64,000 nt of DNA from Verrucomicrobiota bacterium (GTDB taxonomy: Bacteria > Verrucomicrobiota > Verrucomicrobiia > JADLBR01), in assembly GCA_029560585.1 (NCBI GenBank), contig JAKQKQ010000335.1, positions 1 through 64,000 of the forward strand, read 5' to 3'. Below are positions 198-21,926 of this stretch, piece by piece. The notes beneath the pieces are model-generated. The model made no database searches and was not told where the DNA came from. It worked only from the letters and a program-made list of their open reading frames with translations. A program made the position numbers and the translations under genes. Positions within the stretch are counted from its first letter, which is position 1, and each line of letters begins with the position of its first letter.

Positions 198-1595
198 TTA
201 CTGCGCGCGATGTTTCTTGCGCTGCTTGCGGGGCGCCGAGCCGGGTTCGGCGCCGTCGCTTTCCCTTTTCCCGCCGCCCCAGAGCGGTTTCACGAGCGTC
301 GCATTCCATGCGCCCCACTTGGCCTGCAGCTCCTTGGCCTTTTCGGGCATTTCTTGGGAGAGGTCTTTGGTTTCGCCGATATCGGTGGAGAGGTTGTAGA
401 GCCGGGGGGTTGTCACGGGCTGGTTGCGACCTCCCGATCGCGTGTCGGCGTTGCTATCGTATCGGACCAGTTTGTAGTCGCCGGTGCGGATGGCCATCTG
501 TTCTCCAAAGCGCCAATAGAGGGCATCGTGTGGGGGGCCAGATTTCTCGCCGGTGAGAAATGGCAGCAGGTTCACGCCGTCCAGTTTCCATTCTGGGCTC
601 ACCTCGACGCCCGCGACGGCCAGCGCGGTCGCGTGCAGGTCGAGCTGGATGGCTGGCTGTTCGAATACGCCCGGCTTCAGGTGGGTTGGCCACGATACGA
701 CGAAGGGAACGCGGATACCTCCCTCGAGCGTGGTGCGCTTGGACCCGCGCAACGGATCGTTGCGCGAGCCGTTGACGGTGACCCCAGGCATGGTGGGGCC
801 GCCATTGTCGCTGATGAACGTGATCAGCGTCCTGTTCTCGAGCCCGGCTTCGGCTATCGCTTTTTGGACGCGGCCGATGGCTTCGTCCATGGCGAGCATC
901 ATGGCGTCGTATGCGCGGCGCTCCTTGTCGGCGATCCCCTCAAACTTCGCGAGTCGATCATCGGTGGCGTGCATCGGCGTGTGGACGGCATTGAACGCCA
1001 GGTACAGGAACCACTGCTCGGCCTTATGCCGCTCGATGAACGAGACCGCCTCGCGGCCAAACGCGTCGGTTGTGTAATCCAGCTCATTGACCTGCTCGTT
1101 GCCCCGAAGGACTCCCGCGGCCTCGAAATAGCTGTGGGCGCCACCGAGGAAGCCGAAGAACTCGTCAAAGCCGCGTTTCTGCGGGTGCATCTCTGGCAAA
1201 GAGCCGAGGTGCCATTTGCCCACGATGCCGGTGACATATCCGGTCGACTTGAGGCGGTCGGCGATGGTGGTCTCGGTGAGCGGTAGGCCGTTCGAGCCCG
1301 ATGGATTGAATTCGTGCCCGAAGCGCGTCTGGTATCGACCCGTCATGAGTCCCGCGCGGCTCGGCGAGCAATAGGGACCCGAGACATAGCCGTTGGTAAA
1401 TCGAACGCCTCCGGCGGCGAGCCGGTCGAGATTCGGCGTGGGGATGTCCTTGCATCTGTGGAAGCCCACGTCCGCATAGCCCATGTCATCGCCGACGATG
1501 AAGAGGATGTTGGGCTTTTGCGGGGGGGCTGCTGTGATCGGGGCGGATGCGGCGGCGAGCAGCAGGGCGACGCGTGGGACGAGGGTGTGTTTCAT
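198..1595 (-). CDS. Exported type I sulfatase (CSPSR)
   Basis: A 465-residue formylglycine-dependent sulfatase that hydrolyses sulfate esters, probably on an exported glycan. Residues 1-22 form a signal peptide ending near TAA. Metal-site aspartates lie in VGDDMGYADVG (about 34-44). The formylglycine motif is CSPSR at 76-80, followed by AGLMTGR. The GKWHLG motif carries the catalytic Lys and His, and SDNGGP completes the calcium site, so all core motifs are intact. It is the last gene of the operon that starts with the sigma factor near 11366, and begins 18 bp after the preceding hydrolase ends (1614 to 1595). The basic C-terminus (PRKQRKKHRAQ) resembles that of the sulfatases ending at 5802 and 16775. 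The natural substrate cannot be read from sequence. Confidence 0.95.
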   Translation of the reverse strand: MKHTLVPRVALLLAAASAPITAAPPQKPNILFIVGDDMGYADVGFHRCKDIPTPNLDRLAAGGVRFTNGYVSGPYCSPSRAGLMTGRYQTRFGHEFNPSGSNGLPLTETTIADRLKSTGYVTGIVGKWHLGSLPEMHPQKRGFDEFFGFLGGAHSYFEAAGVLRGNEQVNELDYTTDAFGREAVSFIERHKAEQWFLYLAFNAVHTPMHATDDRLAKFEGIADKERRAYDAMMLAMDEAIGRVQKAIAEAGLENRTLITFISDNGGPTMPGVTVNGSRNDPLRGSKRTTLEGGIRVPFVVSWPTHLKPGVFEQPAIQLDLHATALAVAGVEVSPEWKLDGVNLLPFLTGEKSGPPHDALYWRFGEQMAIRTGDYKLVRYDSNADTRSGGRNQPVTTPRLYNLSTDIGETKDLSQEMPEKAKELQAKWGAWNATLVKPLWGGGKRESDGAEPGSAPRKQRKKHRAQ

Positions 1596-1613: not shown

Positions 1614-4280
1614 TCATTCTGGAACGATCTCGTACCAGAGAGTCTTGTAGCGCGAATCGAGAACGAATCGCACGCCGCTGGCGGTGACATCGCCATTGAT
1701 CTGATCGAGCCGTCGCCCGTGGGAATCCAGCGGCCAGGCCGAGGCGCGTTTTGTTTTCAGTATCATTTCGAACGGGATTCCCTCGCACATCACCGGGCCA
1801 TCACCCCACTGGTCACCGACGGATGTCTTTTCGGCGTTCCAGCCCATGCCGCGATTCTCCACGTAGCCAGTGGCGGTCACCAGGATGCCCGCGCCGCGGG
1901 AATGGAAGTCGTCGCCCCGGATCGCGGAGGCGGTGATGACAGAGAAACCGCCCTGCATCGTCGGGCCGGGCCTGAGGGTCACGTCCCCCAACTCGAATGT
2001 CTTGCCCGCACCGAAACCGATCACGGCCTTGGCGCGCGGCGCATTGACCGTGAGCACGCCGCCGACCGCGTCGCTCAGATCGCAGGATAGCTCACTGGTG
2101 TCTGATTGAGCCCGCCTGAGTCCGGGGTCGGCGAGCGGCGCAGTTGCCCCTGAGCCAAGGTCGAGCCCGATCCGATGCGCGAATGCGTCGAGCCATGTCG
2201 CCCCTTTCCCTGCGGCGGCGTCGAACGATCGCCAAGATGAGCCGGACAGCCCGATCAGCGAACGTTTCTCTTCGTCCAGCGTCACGCCGATGGGCGTTTC
2301 CCCCCGCGCTGGTGCCACGTCGCCGCGTCGAAATGCGAGGGCGCCGAATGGGAGGGTGACGAGCTTGATCGGGTGACGGGCCATGTTGAACCAACCGTCG
2401 ATCTGATCGGGGGGGAGCTTTTGCGCCTCGCGACGTTGCCAGTCGTAGGTCATCTCCTGCCAGCAGTGGAAAACGATGCCGTCCCAGTCCTGCAGTGCCC
2501 CCAACGAGGCGATGGTGGGAACCTGCTCCGCGCAGTAGGTGCTCGGCGCGGGATGGCAGTACTCGCTGATATTATATGGCCTTCCGATCGTCCGGCGCCC
2601 GGCCAGTTCCACGACCTCCTCGCAGCCGCGGTTGACCATTGGGGAGTTGCCGATGGTCCAATCCTTCGGGTCCCAGGGTTTGTGGGGGAACGACGGATGT
2701 TGCCAGTAGCCGTGTGAGTCGAGGTAGTCACAACGTGCCTGGCTGAAATACGAGCTGTACTGGTCCACCTGAGTGCCCTTGATGGGATGCTTGCAGCCCA
2801 GCTCATTCCGGAGGAAGTCGCGCATCGTGTCGAAGTAGCGGGCGTCTTGCTCGTAGAGAAAATCCACGAAATCCGCGGCGACCTGCCGCGTGCGCCTCAC
2901 GCAGTCCTCTGGGGCCAATGGCATCGAGACGTTGCCTGCGTCGAGCGATTCGCCCGGGGGCAGTCCGATCACGTCCGCCTTGCGCAGGGAGAGCGCTGCC
3001 AGCGACACGCGGCTGGCGCCAAGCGGCGGCGTGATCATGAGTTTTGCGGCGGGCTCATCCTGGGCGCCCGCGAAGAACAATGTCACCTCTCCCCACTCGG
3101 GGCCGATCTCCGGCGATGCCGCCAGTCCCACGGTGCTCCATGGGGGATGATTCATGGAGACGATCACGCTGAGCTTCGCGGGCGCCTTGGTCGGGATGTC
3201 GGCCTTTGCGCAAAAGGAAAGCTGATATCGGCAGTCTTTTTCGATGACGAGGCCACCCTGGTTAAGGTTGACGAACGCCAGCCGTTCCTGCGCTCGATCG
3301 CTTTCGATGAGGACGCACGGCACCCGCCCCGGCCCGCCATCGGCGACGATCGCCATGGTGGCGGTTGACGGTTTGGCGCACTGCAAGCCCCATGGTGACG
3401 GACCGCCCGAAAAGTCGCCATTTTCCAGCATGTTTCGCGGCTCCGCGTGAATCTCTCCGGTCGACCAGGATTGGCGGAGACGGTCCGTCGTGGCGTGGCG
3501 CGTCTTCAGGAACTTGTTCCAGTGCGACTGGAGGTCGGCCACCATCGCGTCCGGCCATGCCTTGCGGAAGTGGCCGCCGCGCCAGGCGCAGATGAGGCCG
3601 TTCTCGTTGACGATTTCCAAAGAGGAGACCGCCGGTTCCTCGGTGTAGGCCTTGCCGGTGTAGGGATTGACGTGGCCGAAGAAATCTCGGGCGAACTGTT
3701 TCTCGGCCTCGACGAAGCGGTCGTTCCACAGGGGAATACCGCTGGCAAAGGGGGAGAATTTCTGAAAATCCGCGCCCGGATAGTCCGTCGGGCCCGAGAT
3801 GTTCCGCCAGTGATAGCCGTGTACCGGCAACTCGACGTAGATGCCGCATTTCTTGAGTTCGGAGATGAAGCAGTCGAGCCGGTCGAGCTGCGCGGGGTCG
3901 ATCTGCAACTTTCCCTTGTGGGCGGGATCGAAGAGGCCGAGGGGCGCGTGGTGTCCGTCGATCAGGTGGATTCGCACCTGATTCATGCCCCGGCTGGCCA
4001 GCCGTCGTGCCACGAGAGGTGCATCCTCGCGGGAGGGGAAACAGGCCACCCCTATGACACACGTGCCCCAGAAGCGGATGCGTTTGCCGCCTGCGAAGAA
4101 ATGGCCGTCGCGTACCGAGACGAGGTCGTTCGCGGGCGCGCCATTGAGAAAAGAAAGGTCGGTGATGCCTTCGGTGATGCAGTCGGCGGGGAGCGAAAAC
4201 GGAAAAAGGTTTTCGGCGGTGTCCGCGGCCGATGAGGTACCGGCGATGAGCAGAGCGGCGAGAGTGATGGGGTGTTTCAA
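1614..4280 (-). CDS. Exported clan GH-A glycoside hydrolase-like protein
   Basis: An 888-residue protein starting at TTG 4280. This start overlaps the upstream gene's stop as TTGA and has AAGGA about 8 nt upstream, so I prefer it to the longer frame from 4340. The signal peptide is LKHPITLAALLIAGTSSAA. A TIM-barrel-like part follows, with WGTCVIG, NQVRIHLIDGHHAP and LDCFISELKKCGIYVELPV. Likely acid/base Glu is in SLEIVNENG and likely nucleophile Glu in YNISEYCHPAP, the usual strand 4 and strand 7 positions of clan GH-A. An insertion around residues 300-440 looks like a carbohydrate-binding beta-sandwich. It shares this layout with the protein at 55977-58874. The exact GH family is not assigned. 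Its place between sulfatase genes suggests it cuts the desulfated backbone. Confidence 0.8.
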   Translation of the reverse strand: MKHPITLAALLIAGTSSAADTAENLFPFSLPADCITEGITDLSFLNGAPANDLVSVRDGHFFAGGKRIRFWGTCVIGVACFPSREDAPLVARRLASRGMNQVRIHLIDGHHAPLGLFDPAHKGKLQIDPAQLDRLDCFISELKKCGIYVELPVHGYHWRNISGPTDYPGADFQKFSPFASGIPLWNDRFVEAEKQFARDFFGHVNPYTGKAYTEEPAVSSLEIVNENGLICAWRGGHFRKAWPDAMVADLQSHWNKFLKTRHATTDRLRQSWSTGEIHAEPRNMLENGDFSGGPSPWGLQCAKPSTATMAIVADGGPGRVPCVLIESDRAQERLAFVNLNQGGLVIEKDCRYQLSFCAKADIPTKAPAKLSVIVSMNHPPWSTVGLAASPEIGPEWGEVTLFFAGAQDEPAAKLMITPPLGASRVSLAALSLRKADVIGLPPGESLDAGNVSMPLAPEDCVRRTRQVAADFVDFLYEQDARYFDTMRDFLRNELGCKHPIKGTQVDQYSSYFSQARCDYLDSHGYWQHPSFPHKPWDPKDWTIGNSPMVNRGCEEVVELAGRRTIGRPYNISEYCHPAPSTYCAEQVPTIASLGALQDWDGIVFHCWQEMTYDWQRREAQKLPPDQIDGWFNMARHPIKLVTLPFGALAFRRGDVAPARGETPIGVTLDEEKRSLIGLSGSSWRSFDAAAGKGATWLDAFAHRIGLDLGSGATAPLADPGLRRAQSDTSELSCDLSDAVGGVLTVNAPRAKAVIGFGAGKTFELGDVTLRPGPTMQGGFSVITASAIRGDDFHSRGAGILVTATGYVENRGMGWNAEKTSVGDQWGDGPVMCEGIPFEMILKTKRASAWPLDSHGRRLDQINGDVTASGVRFVLDSRYKTLWYEIVPE

Positions 4281-5740
4281 GGGTCGATCCTTGCGAGTTC
4301 CTGGACGGCGCGTATGGCCATGAGTTCGCAGTTGAACCACATCGGGCCCGAGGGTTGCATGACCCAGGTGAGATACCGGCCGGGGGCCGCTCGGTTGGAT
4401 TGTGTGCGGGCGAGGGTGGCGGCGAGTCCCTTGGCCTTCTCGAGATGCAGGCGGTCCCCCGTGGCGTCATAGGCGGCGAGGTACGTGCAGATCAGTTTGG
4501 CGGAACTGGCGCAAACCGGCGCGTAACAGCGGTACTGTTCCAGGACGCAGGGCAGCATCCAGCCGCGCCTCCTGGCGCCGGATTCGCCGTCGGGGTTTTG
4601 TTTCAGGGGTGTTTCGGCCGGCGGCTGCGCCCAGATCACGAATTGATCCTCGGCGAAGCGGAGCAGATCGAGCGCGAGTGCCCGGCGCGCCTGATCCTGA
4701 GGAGCCGTCTCCAGCAGGTGTATCGCAAAGTCGCAGGCCTCGTGTTTGGTGAGGTTCTGATAGGGCGGCTGGGGTTTCACGTCCTCGAACTGGCCCTGCC
4801 AATTCCATGTGCGCACGGGGTATTTTTCGATCCACGCGATGGCGTTGTCGCGCACGGGTTCGAAGCGGCGATCGCCGGTCACTCGCCCGAGCCGATCTAG
4901 GAAGGTGATGACCGACGTTAAGATGAGAACGTTGTCCGTGACTGGCTGGTTGTCCTTTGCGGTCACGAAGAGTGGCCAGCTTCCCTCTGGCGTTTGGCGC
5001 CGAGCGTAGGTTTCCGCGATGCGCACGGCGGCATCGAGGTACTTTCTGTCCCCGGTCGCGGCATGGACGTCGAGGTAATAGAGTCCGGTTTCCGCCCCGC
5101 AGAGGGTCATGTGGCGTTCGGCCACCATGTGTCCGCGGAGCCGATCTTGGAACATCGTGGGATGATAGGTGGGCGGATGGAACGCCCACGCGGCATCCTT
5201 CGGATGGCGGATCCCCAAGAGGTAGTCGGCCGCGCGGCGGGCCGCCAGAAGCGCCTGGACCGCATCCGGTGGCGGTGGGTGCTGTGAGGCATAGATGGCC
5301 AGCGCGGCTGCGGCGGAGAGCAGACCCGTGAGATGACACTTGCCGAATGCGCCGGTGGCGTAGCCTTTTTTCTGGAACAGTTTGGCCAGCGTCAAGCGGC
5401 TTAGATCGAACAGCAGCGGACCGCCGGGGGCATGGACTCCGGTGGGATGATGCCTTGGTTCGCGCCAGAAATAGCGGCCCGCCATCAATCCGTAACGGGT
5501 CGGCGAGCAGACGGATCCCGGCGTGTAGGCCTGGGTGAAGCGCACGCCCTCGCTGGCGAGCCGGTCGATGTTCGGCGTCTTGATTTTCGTCGCCCCGTAA
5601 CAACCGACGTCGCCGTAGCCGAGGTCGTCGGCCAGGATGAGCACGAAGTTGGGCGCGGCGGCGGCATGTGCCAAGAAAGGTGACGCCAAGAGAACCATCG
5701 GGAACTCGTGCCGGCGAGAGTTGGTCGTGGTTGTCGTCAT
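4277..5740 (-). CDS. Chimera: sulfatase N-terminus fused to an alpha/alpha-toroid-like domain
   Basis: Start chosen at ATG 5740 (487 aa; ATG 5698 is also possible). Residues 1-27 look like a signal peptide. Residues 30-137 are a clear sulfatase N-terminus: LILADDLGYGDVG, the formylglycine motif CSPTR (78-82), then GKCHL where sulfatases normally have GKWHL. From about residue 138 sulfatase similarity stops. The rest is helical, with repeats such as LLAARRAADYLLGI, TGLYYLDVHAATGDRKYLDAAV and LICTYLAAYDATGDRLHLEKA, typical of six-hairpin (alpha/alpha) toroid hydrolases and lyases. The missing sulfatase half includes the DNG calcium motif, so sulfatase activity is unlikely. The frame stays open across the join near 5338, and the stop overlaps the next gene's TTG start. 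It could be a real deletion fusion or an assembly error. Confidence 0.75.
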   Translation of the reverse strand: MTTTTTNSRRHEFPMVLLASPFLAHAAAAPNFVLILADDLGYGDVGCYGATKIKTPNIDRLASEGVRFTQAYTPGSVCSPTRYGLMAGRYFWREPRHHPTGVHAPGGPLLFDLSRLTLAKLFQKKGYATGAFGKCHLTGLLSAAAALAIYASQHPPPPDAVQALLAARRAADYLLGIRHPKDAAWAFHPPTYHPTMFQDRLRGHMVAERHMTLCGAETGLYYLDVHAATGDRKYLDAAVRIAETYARRQTPEGSWPLFVTAKDNQPVTDNVLILTSVITFLDRLGRVTGDRRFEPVRDNAIAWIEKYPVRTWNWQGQFEDVKPQPPYQNLTKHEACDFAIHLLETAPQDQARRALALDLLRFAEDQFVIWAQPPAETPLKQNPDGESGARRRGWMLPCVLEQYRCYAPVCASSAKLICTYLAAYDATGDRLHLEKAKGLAATLARTQSNRAAPGRYLTWVMQPSGPMWFNCELMAIRAVQELARIDP

Positions 5741-5801: not shown

Positions 5802-7172
5802 TCAGGATTCCGCCCTTCGCTTCCTATGCTGTTTCCTCTTGCCTTTTGTTTGGGCCGCGCCCTCCCGCGGTTTGGGTTCGGGCAGCGATGCGAGGATGGC
5901 GGCAAAGCGCTCGCGGGCCGCCTTCACTTCCGGGTCCCCCGAGGTGGTCACGTCTTTGTAGCTGGTGCCATCGCGGCTTTCGCCGCAGTCAAAGAACCTC
6001 TCGGGCTTGCCGTCTTTGGGGATCTCGAGGAGCCAGCGCTCGTCGCGGAGGATGCGGCCATCGTCGAGATGGCTGTAGATCCAGTCTCGGTGTTTCGGTT
6101 TTTCGCCGCGGAGCACCGGTCCGAGGCTGTGGCCATCAAAGGGGATATCCTTGGGCAACTCGGCCCCGGCGTACTCCGCGAGGGTGGGCATGATGTCGGT
6201 GAGATCCGCAACGGCGCGGGAGACGACGCCGCGTTTCACGCCCGGTCCGCAGATGATGCAGGGGACGCGGGCTCCGAGTTCCGTCACGGTGCCCTTGCCC
6301 TCGCCGCCCGTGCCGTTATCACCGATGAAGATCACCAGCGTGTTTTCGTCGAGTCCCTCGGCCTTGAGCGCGGCGAACAGCCGACCCATGAGATAGTCGA
6401 GGTATTCGAGATTGGATTTCAGACCGGCCGGCCAGCGCGTGCCGGGTTTGGTGGGGTCGGGTGTTTCCACGCGCGGCTGGTGGGTGAGCACAGATGTGTA
6501 ATAGACAAAGAAAGGTCCGTCCTTATGGCGGCGCGCGAAGTCGATGACGAAGTCGTTGAAAAGATCCGGGCCAAAGTCGTCGGGAGTCGTGGGGCGATAT
6601 TTGCCATTCTCGACGATGCTGGGTTGCCAGTACCTGGAAGCATTGGATTTTTGGCCTTTGCCCTCGTGGGCGGGGTGCTTGATGCCGGCTGGCAGATTAT
6701 GGTCGTAGGCCCACATGCGATACTCATCGAAGCCGGAGTCTTGAATGAGGGTGGGGAGTTCGCCGGAAAGCTGCCATTTGCCCGCGAGCGCGGTCGCGTA
6801 GCCACGCGATTTCAACAGGTCGGCGTGCGTAAAATGCTCGGAGATCCTAGATTGTGGTGATTCTGGGGAGGGCTTGAAGGCGGGGTTTTGCATGCCGAGA
6901 AAACCGTTGTGGAATCCGTATTGTCCGGTCATCAGTGCGACGCGGGTGGGGGTACACAGGGGGTTGGCGTAGAATGTTTCGAAGCGCATTCCTTCCGCCG
7001 CCATGCGATCGAGGTTGGGCGTGCTGTGCCGTTGGCTGCCGTAGCAGGAGAGCTCTTTTGCGCCGAGGTCGTCCGCCAGGACGAGGATGATGTTGGTTCG
7101 TGACGGGTCGGCGGCGTGGCAAGCGACGGCGCCGGCGAAGAACGCCAGGCAGAGGAGGATCTTGTTTTGCAT
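5802..7172 (-). CDS. Exported type I sulfatase (CTPTR, GKWQL variant)
   Basis: A 456-residue sulfatase. Start taken at ATG 7172 (signal peptide MQNKILLCLAFFAGAVACHA), 8 nt downstream of the previous stop; ATG 7190 would overlap that gene. Metal motif VLADDLGAKE (31-40), formylglycine motif CTPTR (73-77), VALMTGQYG, and IFIGDNGTGGEG for the calcium site are visible. The GKWHLG motif reads GKWQLSGE, so the catalytic-site His is replaced by Gln. This may mark a subfamily rather than a loss of function. The C-terminal tail is very basic (TKGKRKQHRKRR). It sits fourth in the sigma-factor operon. The product is expected in the periplasm or outside. Confidence 0.93.
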   Translation of the reverse strand: MQNKILLCLAFFAGAVACHAADPSRTNIILVLADDLGAKELSCYGSQRHSTPNLDRMAAEGMRFETFYANPLCTPTRVALMTGQYGFHNGFLGMQNPAFKPSPESPQSRISEHFTHADLLKSRGYATALAGKWQLSGELPTLIQDSGFDEYRMWAYDHNLPAGIKHPAHEGKGQKSNASRYWQPSIVENGKYRPTTPDDFGPDLFNDFVIDFARRHKDGPFFVYYTSVLTHQPRVETPDPTKPGTRWPAGLKSNLEYLDYLMGRLFAALKAEGLDENTLVIFIGDNGTGGEGKGTVTELGARVPCIICGPGVKRGVVSRAVADLTDIMPTLAEYAGAELPKDIPFDGHSLGPVLRGEKPKHRDWIYSHLDDGRILRDERWLLEIPKDGKPERFFDCGESRDGTSYKDVTTSGDPEVKAARERFAAILASLPEPKPREGAAQTKGKRKQHRKRRAES

Positions 7173-7179
7173 GGTGGTG

Positions 7180-9159
7180 CTACTTCGCATCAAAATCCCA
7201 TCGGGTGGGTTTGGCGTCTGGAGAGGCGGGCTGGAGCTCGACCCAATCCAGAGCGACGGCCTTGCCCCTTGCGGGAAGATAGAGGCGGAGGTGGAGGAGC
7301 GACCCTTTGACCGGGAGCTGGGCGGTTGTTTCGGCGCCCTCGGCGCTTGCGGGTAGGGTGAACTCTTGGACCTGGCCCTCGTTGGGGAATGCATCTTGGT
7401 CGGCGGTTCGCCACTGAACTTTGGCTGGTCCGCCCTCGGACTTCGCGCGGAGGCGAAGGGTCACGGGGCCCATGAGTTTGAGGGCCGTCAAGCCGAGGAA
7501 TGGTGCAGGGCCCTCACCCGTCACGATGAGCCAGCCATCGCGTTCCTCGGCCCCGCAATTTTTCGGCACCCAGCCGCCGAGTGGCCTTGCGGCGCGGGCG
7601 GGGCTTCCTGTCCCCGGTTTGAATGCGGGATTGGGCCGCGGGTAGGTGGCGCCGGTATCGGAGAGGAAACCATCGATGAGCGCGTCCATCTCCTTCACGC
7701 GATTGGGTTCGGCGGGGGCCAGGTTCTTTGTCTCGCCGATGTCGTCGCGCAGGTTGTAGAGCTCGCGAAGGCTTGGGTCGGCTGGGGGAACGCCGAACCA
7801 GCGGATGAGTTTCCAGTCCCCAGATCGCACCCACACACCGCCCGCGTGTCCGGCGCTGCGGCCGTGGGGGAAGTAGTTGAAGAAAGCCTTGCGCTCGAGC
7901 GCACCGGTCTGCTTCAGCACGTTGGCGTAGCTTACTCCGTCGATCTTCTGCTGGGCGGGACGCGACAGGCCGACCATGTCGAGCAACGTGGGATACAGGT
8001 CTATGTGCCCGACCACCGCATTGCTGGTGGTGCCCGGCTTGATGCGTCCTGGCCACGACCACATCAGCGGGACGCGCGTGCCGCCCTCATAGAGCGAGCC
8101 CTTGCCGTCGCGGAGCGGTGCGTTGATCGTGGGCGGTTGCGTGCCGGCCCATTTGCGCCAATCGACCATAAAAGGATCGTCGGCCTTGCGGCGCTGGGCC
8201 CTCCCATCTTCCGCTGTGTTGCTGTGGGTGTTGCCGCCATTGTCAGAGTTGAAGACGACGATGGTGTTGTCCGCGATGCCGAGGCGGTTGAGGGTGTCGA
8301 GGACGCGTCCAAAACATTCGTCCACGCTCTTGAGCATCGAGGCCATGATGGGATTGCCCTGGACGCCCCGCGGATCTTTCTTGGGGGCGAACGCCTTGGT
8401 GTACTCCACCTTGTGGCCCCATGGGCCGTGGACTCCGTAATTCCAGAGATTCAGGAAAAACGGCCTGTCGCGGTTCGCCTCGATAAACCTTATGGCCTCG
8501 TCCGCGAGGCGATCGACAATGTACTCGCCGGGTGGGCCATCGGTGATAGTGCCGACTTTGTTTTTGCCGCCGGGAGTTCCTTCTGGGCTCACGCCATAAG
8601 GAGAGAAGTAGCTGCCGGGGGGGCCGGGGTCGGGGTGGCAGTGGAACGTTGTATCGAAGCCCTGCTGTTCCGGCCAGTATGGCTGCGTCAGGCCGAGGTG
8701 CCACTTGCCGATGTGGGCGGTACGATAGCCTGCGTTGCGCAGCGCCTCGGCGAGCGTATGCTCCGATGGCTCCATGAAGTTCTTGCTCTTGGGCGCGAGC
8801 ATTGGCTGGGAGGGCGGCGCGCTGTCGGGCAGGTATTTGTAGTTCGCGGGCTGCGGGGGCAGATGGCCGGAGGCGCTGGTGATGCCGTGGCGGGCGGAGT
8901 ATTTCCCGGTCAGGAGGCTTGCGCGCGTGGGCGAGCACAGCGGTTGCGCGTAGGCGTCCGTGAACCGCATCGCATCCTTGGCGAAGCGATCGATGTTGGG
9001 TGTCTCGTAGTATTTTGATCCATATACCCCGCAATCCATCCAACCCATGTCGTCCACGAGAAAGACGATGATGTTGGGTTTGGATGGTTTCGGCGCATCG
9101 GCGGCGCGGGGTGCCGCCGATGCACACATCAGGATGGCGAGGATTAGCATTCGTTTCAT
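7180..9159 (-). CDS. Exported type I sulfatase with C-terminal beta-sandwich extension
   Basis: A 659-residue protein, longer than the usual 450-550 aa. ATG 9159 is preceded by AGGTGG at good spacing. The signal peptide is MKRMLILAILMCASAAPRAA. Sulfatase motifs are FLVDDMGWMDCG (33-44), formylglycine motif CSPTR (75-79), GKWHLGLT and NSDNGGNTH. After the sulfatase fold ends near residue 540, a 110-120 residue segment rich in beta-type sequence (VTLRLRAKSEGGPAKVQWRT, LLHLRLYLPARG, VALDWVELQP) looks like a carbohydrate-binding or galactose-binding-like domain. That domain call is inference. It begins 12 bp after the FecR-LamG gene ends and is third in the operon. Confidence 0.95.
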   Translation of the reverse strand: MKRMLILAILMCASAAPRAADAPKPSKPNIIVFLVDDMGWMDCGVYGSKYYETPNIDRFAKDAMRFTDAYAQPLCSPTRASLLTGKYSARHGITSASGHLPPQPANYKYLPDSAPPSQPMLAPKSKNFMEPSEHTLAEALRNAGYRTAHIGKWHLGLTQPYWPEQQGFDTTFHCHPDPGPPGSYFSPYGVSPEGTPGGKNKVGTITDGPPGEYIVDRLADEAIRFIEANRDRPFFLNLWNYGVHGPWGHKVEYTKAFAPKKDPRGVQGNPIMASMLKSVDECFGRVLDTLNRLGIADNTIVVFNSDNGGNTHSNTAEDGRAQRRKADDPFMVDWRKWAGTQPPTINAPLRDGKGSLYEGGTRVPLMWSWPGRIKPGTTSNAVVGHIDLYPTLLDMVGLSRPAQQKIDGVSYANVLKQTGALERKAFFNYFPHGRSAGHAGGVWVRSGDWKLIRWFGVPPADPSLRELYNLRDDIGETKNLAPAEPNRVKEMDALIDGFLSDTGATYPRPNPAFKPGTGSPARAARPLGGWVPKNCGAEERDGWLIVTGEGPAPFLGLTALKLMGPVTLRLRAKSEGGPAKVQWRTADQDAFPNEGQVQEFTLPASAEGAETTAQLPVKGSLLHLRLYLPARGKAVALDWVELQPASPDAKPTRWDFDAK

Positions 9160-20742: not shown

Positions 20743-21926
20743 TCACGCCGCCATCCTGTTCTGGTGGGCTGGGGTCCATCGCAGGATGGCCCGTAACCGC
20801 GCTTCGATCTGGCGCTTCATCTCGAATGGATCCAGGGCGTCCATCTGGCGTTGCAGTGTGGCTATCTTGTGCGGCTCGACCGTGCCGCTGGCCTTGAGTC
20901 GGTCAAAGGGGGTTTGCGGCCTGTCGTAACGACGCAGGAGCCTGCTGCCCTCCCGGCGCTTCTCCACGAGCCGCATGGCCGGGCAGAAGAAGTTGCGCCA
21001 CGGGTTCCAGATCTCGCGGTAGAGCGCGTCGAGCAACTCGGCCTGCCGCGGATCGCCCAGGCGGCAGTAGCCGACCAACTGGCGCACGTGGGTCCAGTTC
21101 TTCTGCTCGACCCGCGCATTGTCGTTCTTGCGGTAGGGCCGGGAGCGGGTGAAGGCCACCTTGCGCTCCCGCCGGTGGAAGTAGGCCACCAGATGGTGGT
21201 TGAGAAACTCGCTGCCGTTGTCGCAGTCAAAGCCCAGGATCGGGAACGGCAGATCGGCTTCCACCGCCGCCACCCGCTCGCAGACGGCGTGCCCGCCCTT
21301 GTTGAAACAGGCCCGGTTCTCGGTCCACTGGCTCAGCACGTCGGTGAAGGTCAGGCTCCAGACGTGGTCCCCGGCAGTGCTATCGCCGCAGTGGGCCACC
21401 GAATCGGCCTCTATCCAACCGGGGGCCTGGATGTCGCGGTGCTCCACCAGCACCGGGATCTGGGAGCGCAAAAGCGTGCCCGGCCGGGTGCCGCAGCGGG
21501 CCCGTCTGCCGGCCGCGGCCCGGTGTGGCGCCAGCAGCCGGTCGATGCTCGATGGGCTCATGCCCAGCAACCGGTCCCGCAGCCCGCCATCCAGCCGGCC
21601 CTTGCGGGCCTCGTAATGGGGCAGCCATAAAGGCAGCGCCGCCGCCAGGCGCTTGCCGCAGGGTTGCTCGGCGGCAAACCAGATATCCTTGAGAACCCGG
21701 GCCTCCTCCGGCCCGTAGCGCCGCCGTGGACCGCCGCGCCGCGAGCCCGCGCCCCAAGGCCCATCTGGCCCCCCATCAGTTTGATCGCGTGTTTGCGGCT
21801 CACACCGCAGACCTCGCACACTTCATCCAAGAGCCGGCCCCGACCTTGCCGGCCCCGACCCGCATACCGCTGCCGGGCCACCTTCAGAAACTCGTACCGG
21901 CTCGATTGGCTCATCTGAAATGACAT
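20743..21926 (-). pseudogene. IS transposase (DDE integrase type) split by a frameshift
   Basis: The N-terminal part (about 21926 to 21775) reads MSFQMSQSSRYEFLKVARQ and a helix-turn-helix-like region, CEVCGVSRKHAIKLMGG. Translation must then shift by -1 at a run of six G (minus strand, 21769-21774) to enter the frame with RRRYGPEEARVLKDIW, AAEQPCGKRLAAALPLWLP and the catalytic domain. The DDE residues are visible: Asp in GWIEADSVAHCG, Asp in LGFDCDNGSEFL, Glu in KNDNARVEQKNW. The joined product would be about 393 aa, a normal length. The slip run could give programmed -1 frameshifting, or an indel may have broken the gene. Everything after the shift is intact. Confidence 0.8.

Follow-up and report, generated by a model that had tools for sequence, protein, structure and literature searches.

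A single open reading frame in the window (the whole 64,000-nt stretch of Verrucomicrobiota DNA analysed here) joins the N-terminus of a sulfatase to the C-terminal part of a helical toroid enzyme. It runs on the minus strand from an ATG to a TGA (5740-4277) and encodes 487 aa, with no internal stop. We infer, with some confidence, that the organism rather than the assembler brought about this join, a real and recent deletion having made one non-functional ORF from two enzyme genes. The sequence-only reading had offered a natural deletion or an assembly join as the candidates, and these are indeed the two to be weighed; we lean toward the deletion and regard the assembly join as a possible but less probable account. 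The fused ORF is really in the assembly, yet no functional fusion enzyme is supported, and under deletion or artefact alike the evidence gathered here points to no working enzyme.

The join is confirmed, at the level of the sequence, to be real in the assembly because independent DNA alignments place both breakpoints and a protein alignment agrees on the toroid side. In separate blastn alignments to four other genomes (G047, G462, G427 and G528), sulfatase similarity ends at window position 5330, while toroid similarity begins at 5314-5316 in five genomes (G462, G391, G001, G010 and G528) and the protein alignment to the toroids starts from residue 142, equivalent to position 5317. The sulfatase fragment therefore comprises residues 1-137 (5330..5740, minus strand), with the leader region, a metal-binding DD, CSPTR and the terminal GKCHL. 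It is followed by 12 bases, ACGGGTCTGCTC (5318..5329, minus strand; residues TGLL), which resemble neither parent when compared codon by codon with sulfatase and toroid relatives. The toroid part (4277..5317, minus strand) then begins with the codons SAAAALAIYASQ, as located by the same kind of comparison, and holds 346 C-terminal residues plus the stop codon, the first ~198 residues of the toroid being absent. The junction lies at a GK(W/C)HL motif (residues 133-137), which reads GKCHL here and GKWHL in relatives. An in-frame fusion joined at the GKWH motif was precisely what the sequence-only reading had described, and both points stand, one ORF having a PF00884 match on one side of the join and toroid homology on the other. 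The source assembly is a draft of apparently metagenomic origin (336 contigs, 7.06 Mb, 4.2% contamination). Throughout the 7.06-Mb assembly, the 24-base words that span the junction are unique even when three mismatches are allowed, and hence there is no genomic repeat to mislead an assembler; no fitting repeat flanks the junction and no step in base composition occurs across it.

Only the beginning of an S1 sulfatase is present. Residues 30-138 match PF00884 (4.2e-21) over profile positions 1-103 of 301, and the C-x-P-x-R formylglycine motif is found as CSPTR. The whole S1 catalytic domain with its later metal-binding DNG segment is not found: TSDNGG, located in the second half of a complete sulfatase relative, is absent from the ORF. 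The closest sulfatases to the fragment (86% identity in G047, 84% in L054 and 81% in L058) are all complete enzymes of ~500 aa, from which it follows that ~360 residues including the later metal site, or ~70% of the enzyme, are missing here. This bears out the earlier view that the sulfatase part could not work alone. A sulfatase fragment of ~110 residues is not known to have a stable fold. The parent subtype finds its best PDB matches in, among others, 6s20 (N-acetylgalactosamine-6-O-sulfatase), 7oze and two S1_15 entries, 9bau and 9bas.

On the toroid side, residues 142-486 are ~70-74% identical to stand-alone helical-barrel proteins of Verrucomicrobiota and Lentisphaerae, which measure 520-580 aa in most relatives (549 aa for L012 of the same-genus genome G001) and start with signal-like leaders of their own, as read directly from their sequences. 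In the AlphaFold2 model of one full-length relative, L026 (mean pLDDT 91), an all-beta N-terminal domain with strands at ~28-150 precedes helices at 156-168, 192-207, 216-233 and onward. The toroid part of the window ORF begins at the equivalent of L026 residue 199; it thus lacks the leader, the beta domain, helix 156-168 and half of the next helix, and the beta domain plus complete 12-helix barrel that characterise the family are missing. Thirty-two columns are invariant in an alignment of 30 stand-alone toroids. The window ORF keeps every one of those that fall in the retained part (27/27), and the other five lie in the deleted part, among them P192 and K194 of a Y-P-x-K motif. An AF2 model of the fusion, for which only toroid rows were used, keeps the remaining helices and drops to pLDDT ~53 around NWQGQFED and ~43-45 around 370-389, two conserved loops. 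Sulfatase rows were misplaced in alignments that mixed sulfatase and toroid fragments, and nothing is concluded from the model on the sulfatase stretch. The helical domain of ~350 residues noted earlier is thus a toroid, as proposed, but an incomplete one whose ~198 N-terminal residues, including part of the barrel, are gone.

On the strength of sequence and fold comparisons, the toroid is an uncharacterised (alpha/alpha)6 family without a Pfam model. It reaches no family cut-off in Pfam or NCBIfam, sequence profiles return weak GH76-like matches only, and its Foldseek neighbours, GH76 and AGE-type 2-epimerases, align at TM ~0.4-0.5 only. Family members span Verrucomicrobiota, Lentisphaerae, Bacteroidota and Clostridia. 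Four toroid genes lie within 11 kb at a Sphingobacteriaceae locus (L051:2120-12854), which suggests an expansion of the family in Bacteroidota. Another Bacteroidetes toroid gene (L055:5407-7032) is split into two adjacent ORFs of 310 and 229 aa, perhaps by a frameshift.

We sampled ~740 relatives across the class and phylum for a second case of the sulfatase-N/toroid fusion. Neither the 384 genomes from the class nor the 388 from the phylum, two samples that overlap, yielded one, and a genome_contigs scan covering 84,980 species gave none among its 77 best loci. Several genomes in the genome_contigs list had seemed to carry the same fusion (matches 3-486, 21-486 and similar); piece-by-piece tblastn resolved them into toroid-first fusions or into cases where a separate sulfatase gene lies downstream of the toroid gene. 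The search for the fusion or for separate genes in relatives, suggested by the sequence-only reading, turned up two separate complete genes and no such fusion. The reading had named this outcome as its refutation, but the result shows only that the fusion is not conserved and leaves a recent event in one lineage standing. The missing pieces were also sought among the 336 contigs of the genome itself. The toroid N-terminus has zero matches elsewhere, the sulfatase C-terminus has no close copy (the best match to a relative's C-terminus is 44%), and neither lost half lies at a contig end. Because the lost pieces exist nowhere else in the genome assembly, an internal deletion is favoured over a misjoin of distant loci.

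Sulfatases and toroids are frequent neighbours in relatives. We compared 23 loci of close toroids (L025-L047). A same-strand sulfatase adjoins the toroid or is fused to it in 13 of them, and in seven of the 23 (L030, L032, L035, L036, L039, L042 and L046) it stands directly upstream on the same strand, several of these pairs overlapping by 4 nt. Since such sulfatase-then-toroid pairs exist, a single in-frame deletion of at least ~1.7 kb would suffice to make the join. The toroid-adjacent sulfatases of relatives are of different subtypes and share 32-47% identity with the window fragment, so that the exact ancestral pair is not seen there. In the window, the genes beside the fusion are all on its strand. 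Upstream are complete sulfatase genes with PF00884 matches at 5802..7394 and, further away, 7180..9159; downstream are a glycoside-hydrolase-like gene (1614..4280, weak PF00150 match), whose likely TTG start overlaps the fusion's TGA, and another complete sulfatase gene (198..1595, PF00884). The DNA of the nearest upstream sulfatase gene is 78% identical to G391 and G001 and ~77% to G528, and a search for an intact pair at the syntenic place found no toroid beside its orthologs in these three genomes. The genes of the window map by blastn to scattered contigs in relatives, and synteny is accordingly low.

An integrase-core transposase-like ORF was recognised by eye at 20743-21819, and a mobile element may therefore lie at a distance of ~15 kb from the join. 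A comparable stump, which speaks for the deletion reading, stands on contig C327 of the same-genus genome G001 (L133:11385-11759). It is a sulfatase N-terminus of ~113 aa that includes a leader and CSPTR; its stop overlaps the start ATG of the complete sulfatase gene that follows, and it resembles another product of deletion within a sulfatase array.

We propose that the ancestor of this lineage had a same-strand gene pair, a complete S1 sulfatase followed by a complete toroid. One internal deletion of at least ~1.7 kb (~1.07 kb of sulfatase, 0.59 kb of toroid and any spacer) would have taken out sulfatase codons ~138-500 and the first ~198 codons of the toroid, together with whatever lay between the two genes, and 12 extra bases would have come to stand between the ends. 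A search for Ku (PF02735) gave no match, and we therefore do not explain these filler bases by Ku-dependent end joining. Simple microhomology joining at CATCTC, a word that occurs in codons of both parents, was considered and rejected because the 12 bases that follow match neither parent. Preservation of the reading frame may be a matter of chance (one in three) or may have been favoured by translational coupling to the gene that follows. What is left would be a remnant of 487 codons with essential parts of both enzymes missing, from which probably neither an active sulfatase nor a correctly folded toroid is made. With the join in frame and the TTG start overlapping the fusion's TGA, coupling to the downstream gene would be kept and the remnant could keep translation running into that gene. 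Both halves appear undecayed, all retained toroid invariants being intact, and the event would therefore be very recent, unless it is an artefact.

According to the artefact explanation, which we consider a real though lesser possibility, both genes are intact in the organism, and the DNA between the two retained ends was dropped or bridged during assembly or scaffolding; the lost piece would then reside in a short contig left out of the bin, or in a variant strain. That the fusion is unique to one draft, metagenome-like genome and that neither half has decayed fits this account, as do the W-to-C change beside the junction and the difficulty of assembling sulfatase arrays, the genome having 86 sulfatase-like matches. 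The details of the junction are less easily accommodated: its words are unique in the genome, and its 12 bases match neither parent, whereas assembler joins normally pass through a shared word. The lost halves are moreover found at no contig end, and the preserved reading frame also speaks for the organism. Recombination between two distant loci, a translocation instead of the deletion of one adjacent segment, seems to us the least credible of all. It would agree with the low synteny and with the fact that this sulfatase subtype never adjoins a toroid in the relatives seen, but the genome contains no reciprocal pieces and sulfatase-toroid adjacency is common.

We also give very little credence to a functional chimera in which the sulfatase leader exports a working toroid enzyme. 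Such a protein would be in frame, with a start, a leader and intact retained invariants, and natural two-domain toroid-sulfatase proteins exist. These natural fusions, however, have complete domains in the opposite order, whereas from the window ORF the beta domain, the first 1.5 helices of the barrel and the invariant P-x-K motif are gone, and the fold of its short sulfatase fragment is a further difficulty. Purifying selection should have kept a functional fusion in several genomes, and this one is in none of the others sampled. The earlier suggestion of a useful export signal in the sulfatase part is not supported, given that stand-alone toroids have leaders already and that the toroid core is damaged; from the sequences compared, it is unlikely that the sulfatase leader exports a working toroid. 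Slightly less credible again is the specific version in which an expressed fusion protein still has a folded, working toroid remnant, with the leader and last helix of the sulfatase replacing the lost N-terminus. If true, deletion would here have created a new chimeric enzyme, secreted and acting on glycans. As a gene, the window ORF matters little; it serves mainly to caution that a good sulfatase match in an in-frame ORF can come from the remnant of two enzymes.

The natural toroid-sulfatase fusions are more useful than the window ORF, as they offer ready-made two-domain proteins to test. One is a single 1001-aa ORF from Kiritimatiellales (JAIPJC010000139.1, L027:1433-4438) and the other a single 1044-aa ORF from Verrucomicrobiaceae (JAIBCL010000018.1, L043:5296-8430). 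In each, a complete toroid is followed by a complete PF00884 domain (profile positions 1-301 and 1-300, respectively), with a linker of ~10-30 residues and no second leader. Directly upstream of the Kiritimatiellales fusion is a further toroid gene, overlapping it by 4 nt. Other architectures were met as well, namely a toroid-toroid tandem in one ORF of 1127 aa (L131:4744-8127) and, in a more distant relative, a LamG-toroid-GH43 ORF of 1092 aa (L132:5704-8982). This genomic context of sulfatase, GH43 and LamG partners supports the idea that the toroid is glycan-active together with sulfatases. The adjoining or fused sulfatase in 13 of the 23 loci suggests, in addition, that toroid and sulfatase have the same sulfated polysaccharides as substrates. 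The group is indicated in a published source to be known for very high sulfatase numbers (PMC6388578).

Four known systems come closest to the window ORF. Like the S1 formylglycine sulfatases (PF00884), its residues 1-137 carry CSPTR and the first metal-binding DD at 81-86% identity to the complete relatives of their subtype, but the later active-site half with the DNG metal site and the C-terminal domain are lacking. Its residues 142-487 share all 27 retained invariant residues with the stand-alone toroid family and differ from it in having no leader, no N-terminal beta domain, no first 1.5 helices and no invariant P-x-K motif. The fusions of Kiritimatiellales and Verrucomicrobiaceae unite the same two enzyme families in one polypeptide; in these the toroid comes first and both domains are complete, whereas in the window ORF the order is reversed and both are truncated. 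A sulfatase joined to a glycan-active partner has a precedent in the alpha-L-rhamnosidase/sulfatase (GH78) of PDB 6hr5, which, judging by the entry's name, is as a whole protein a complete bifunctional enzyme, and whose partner is of another family.
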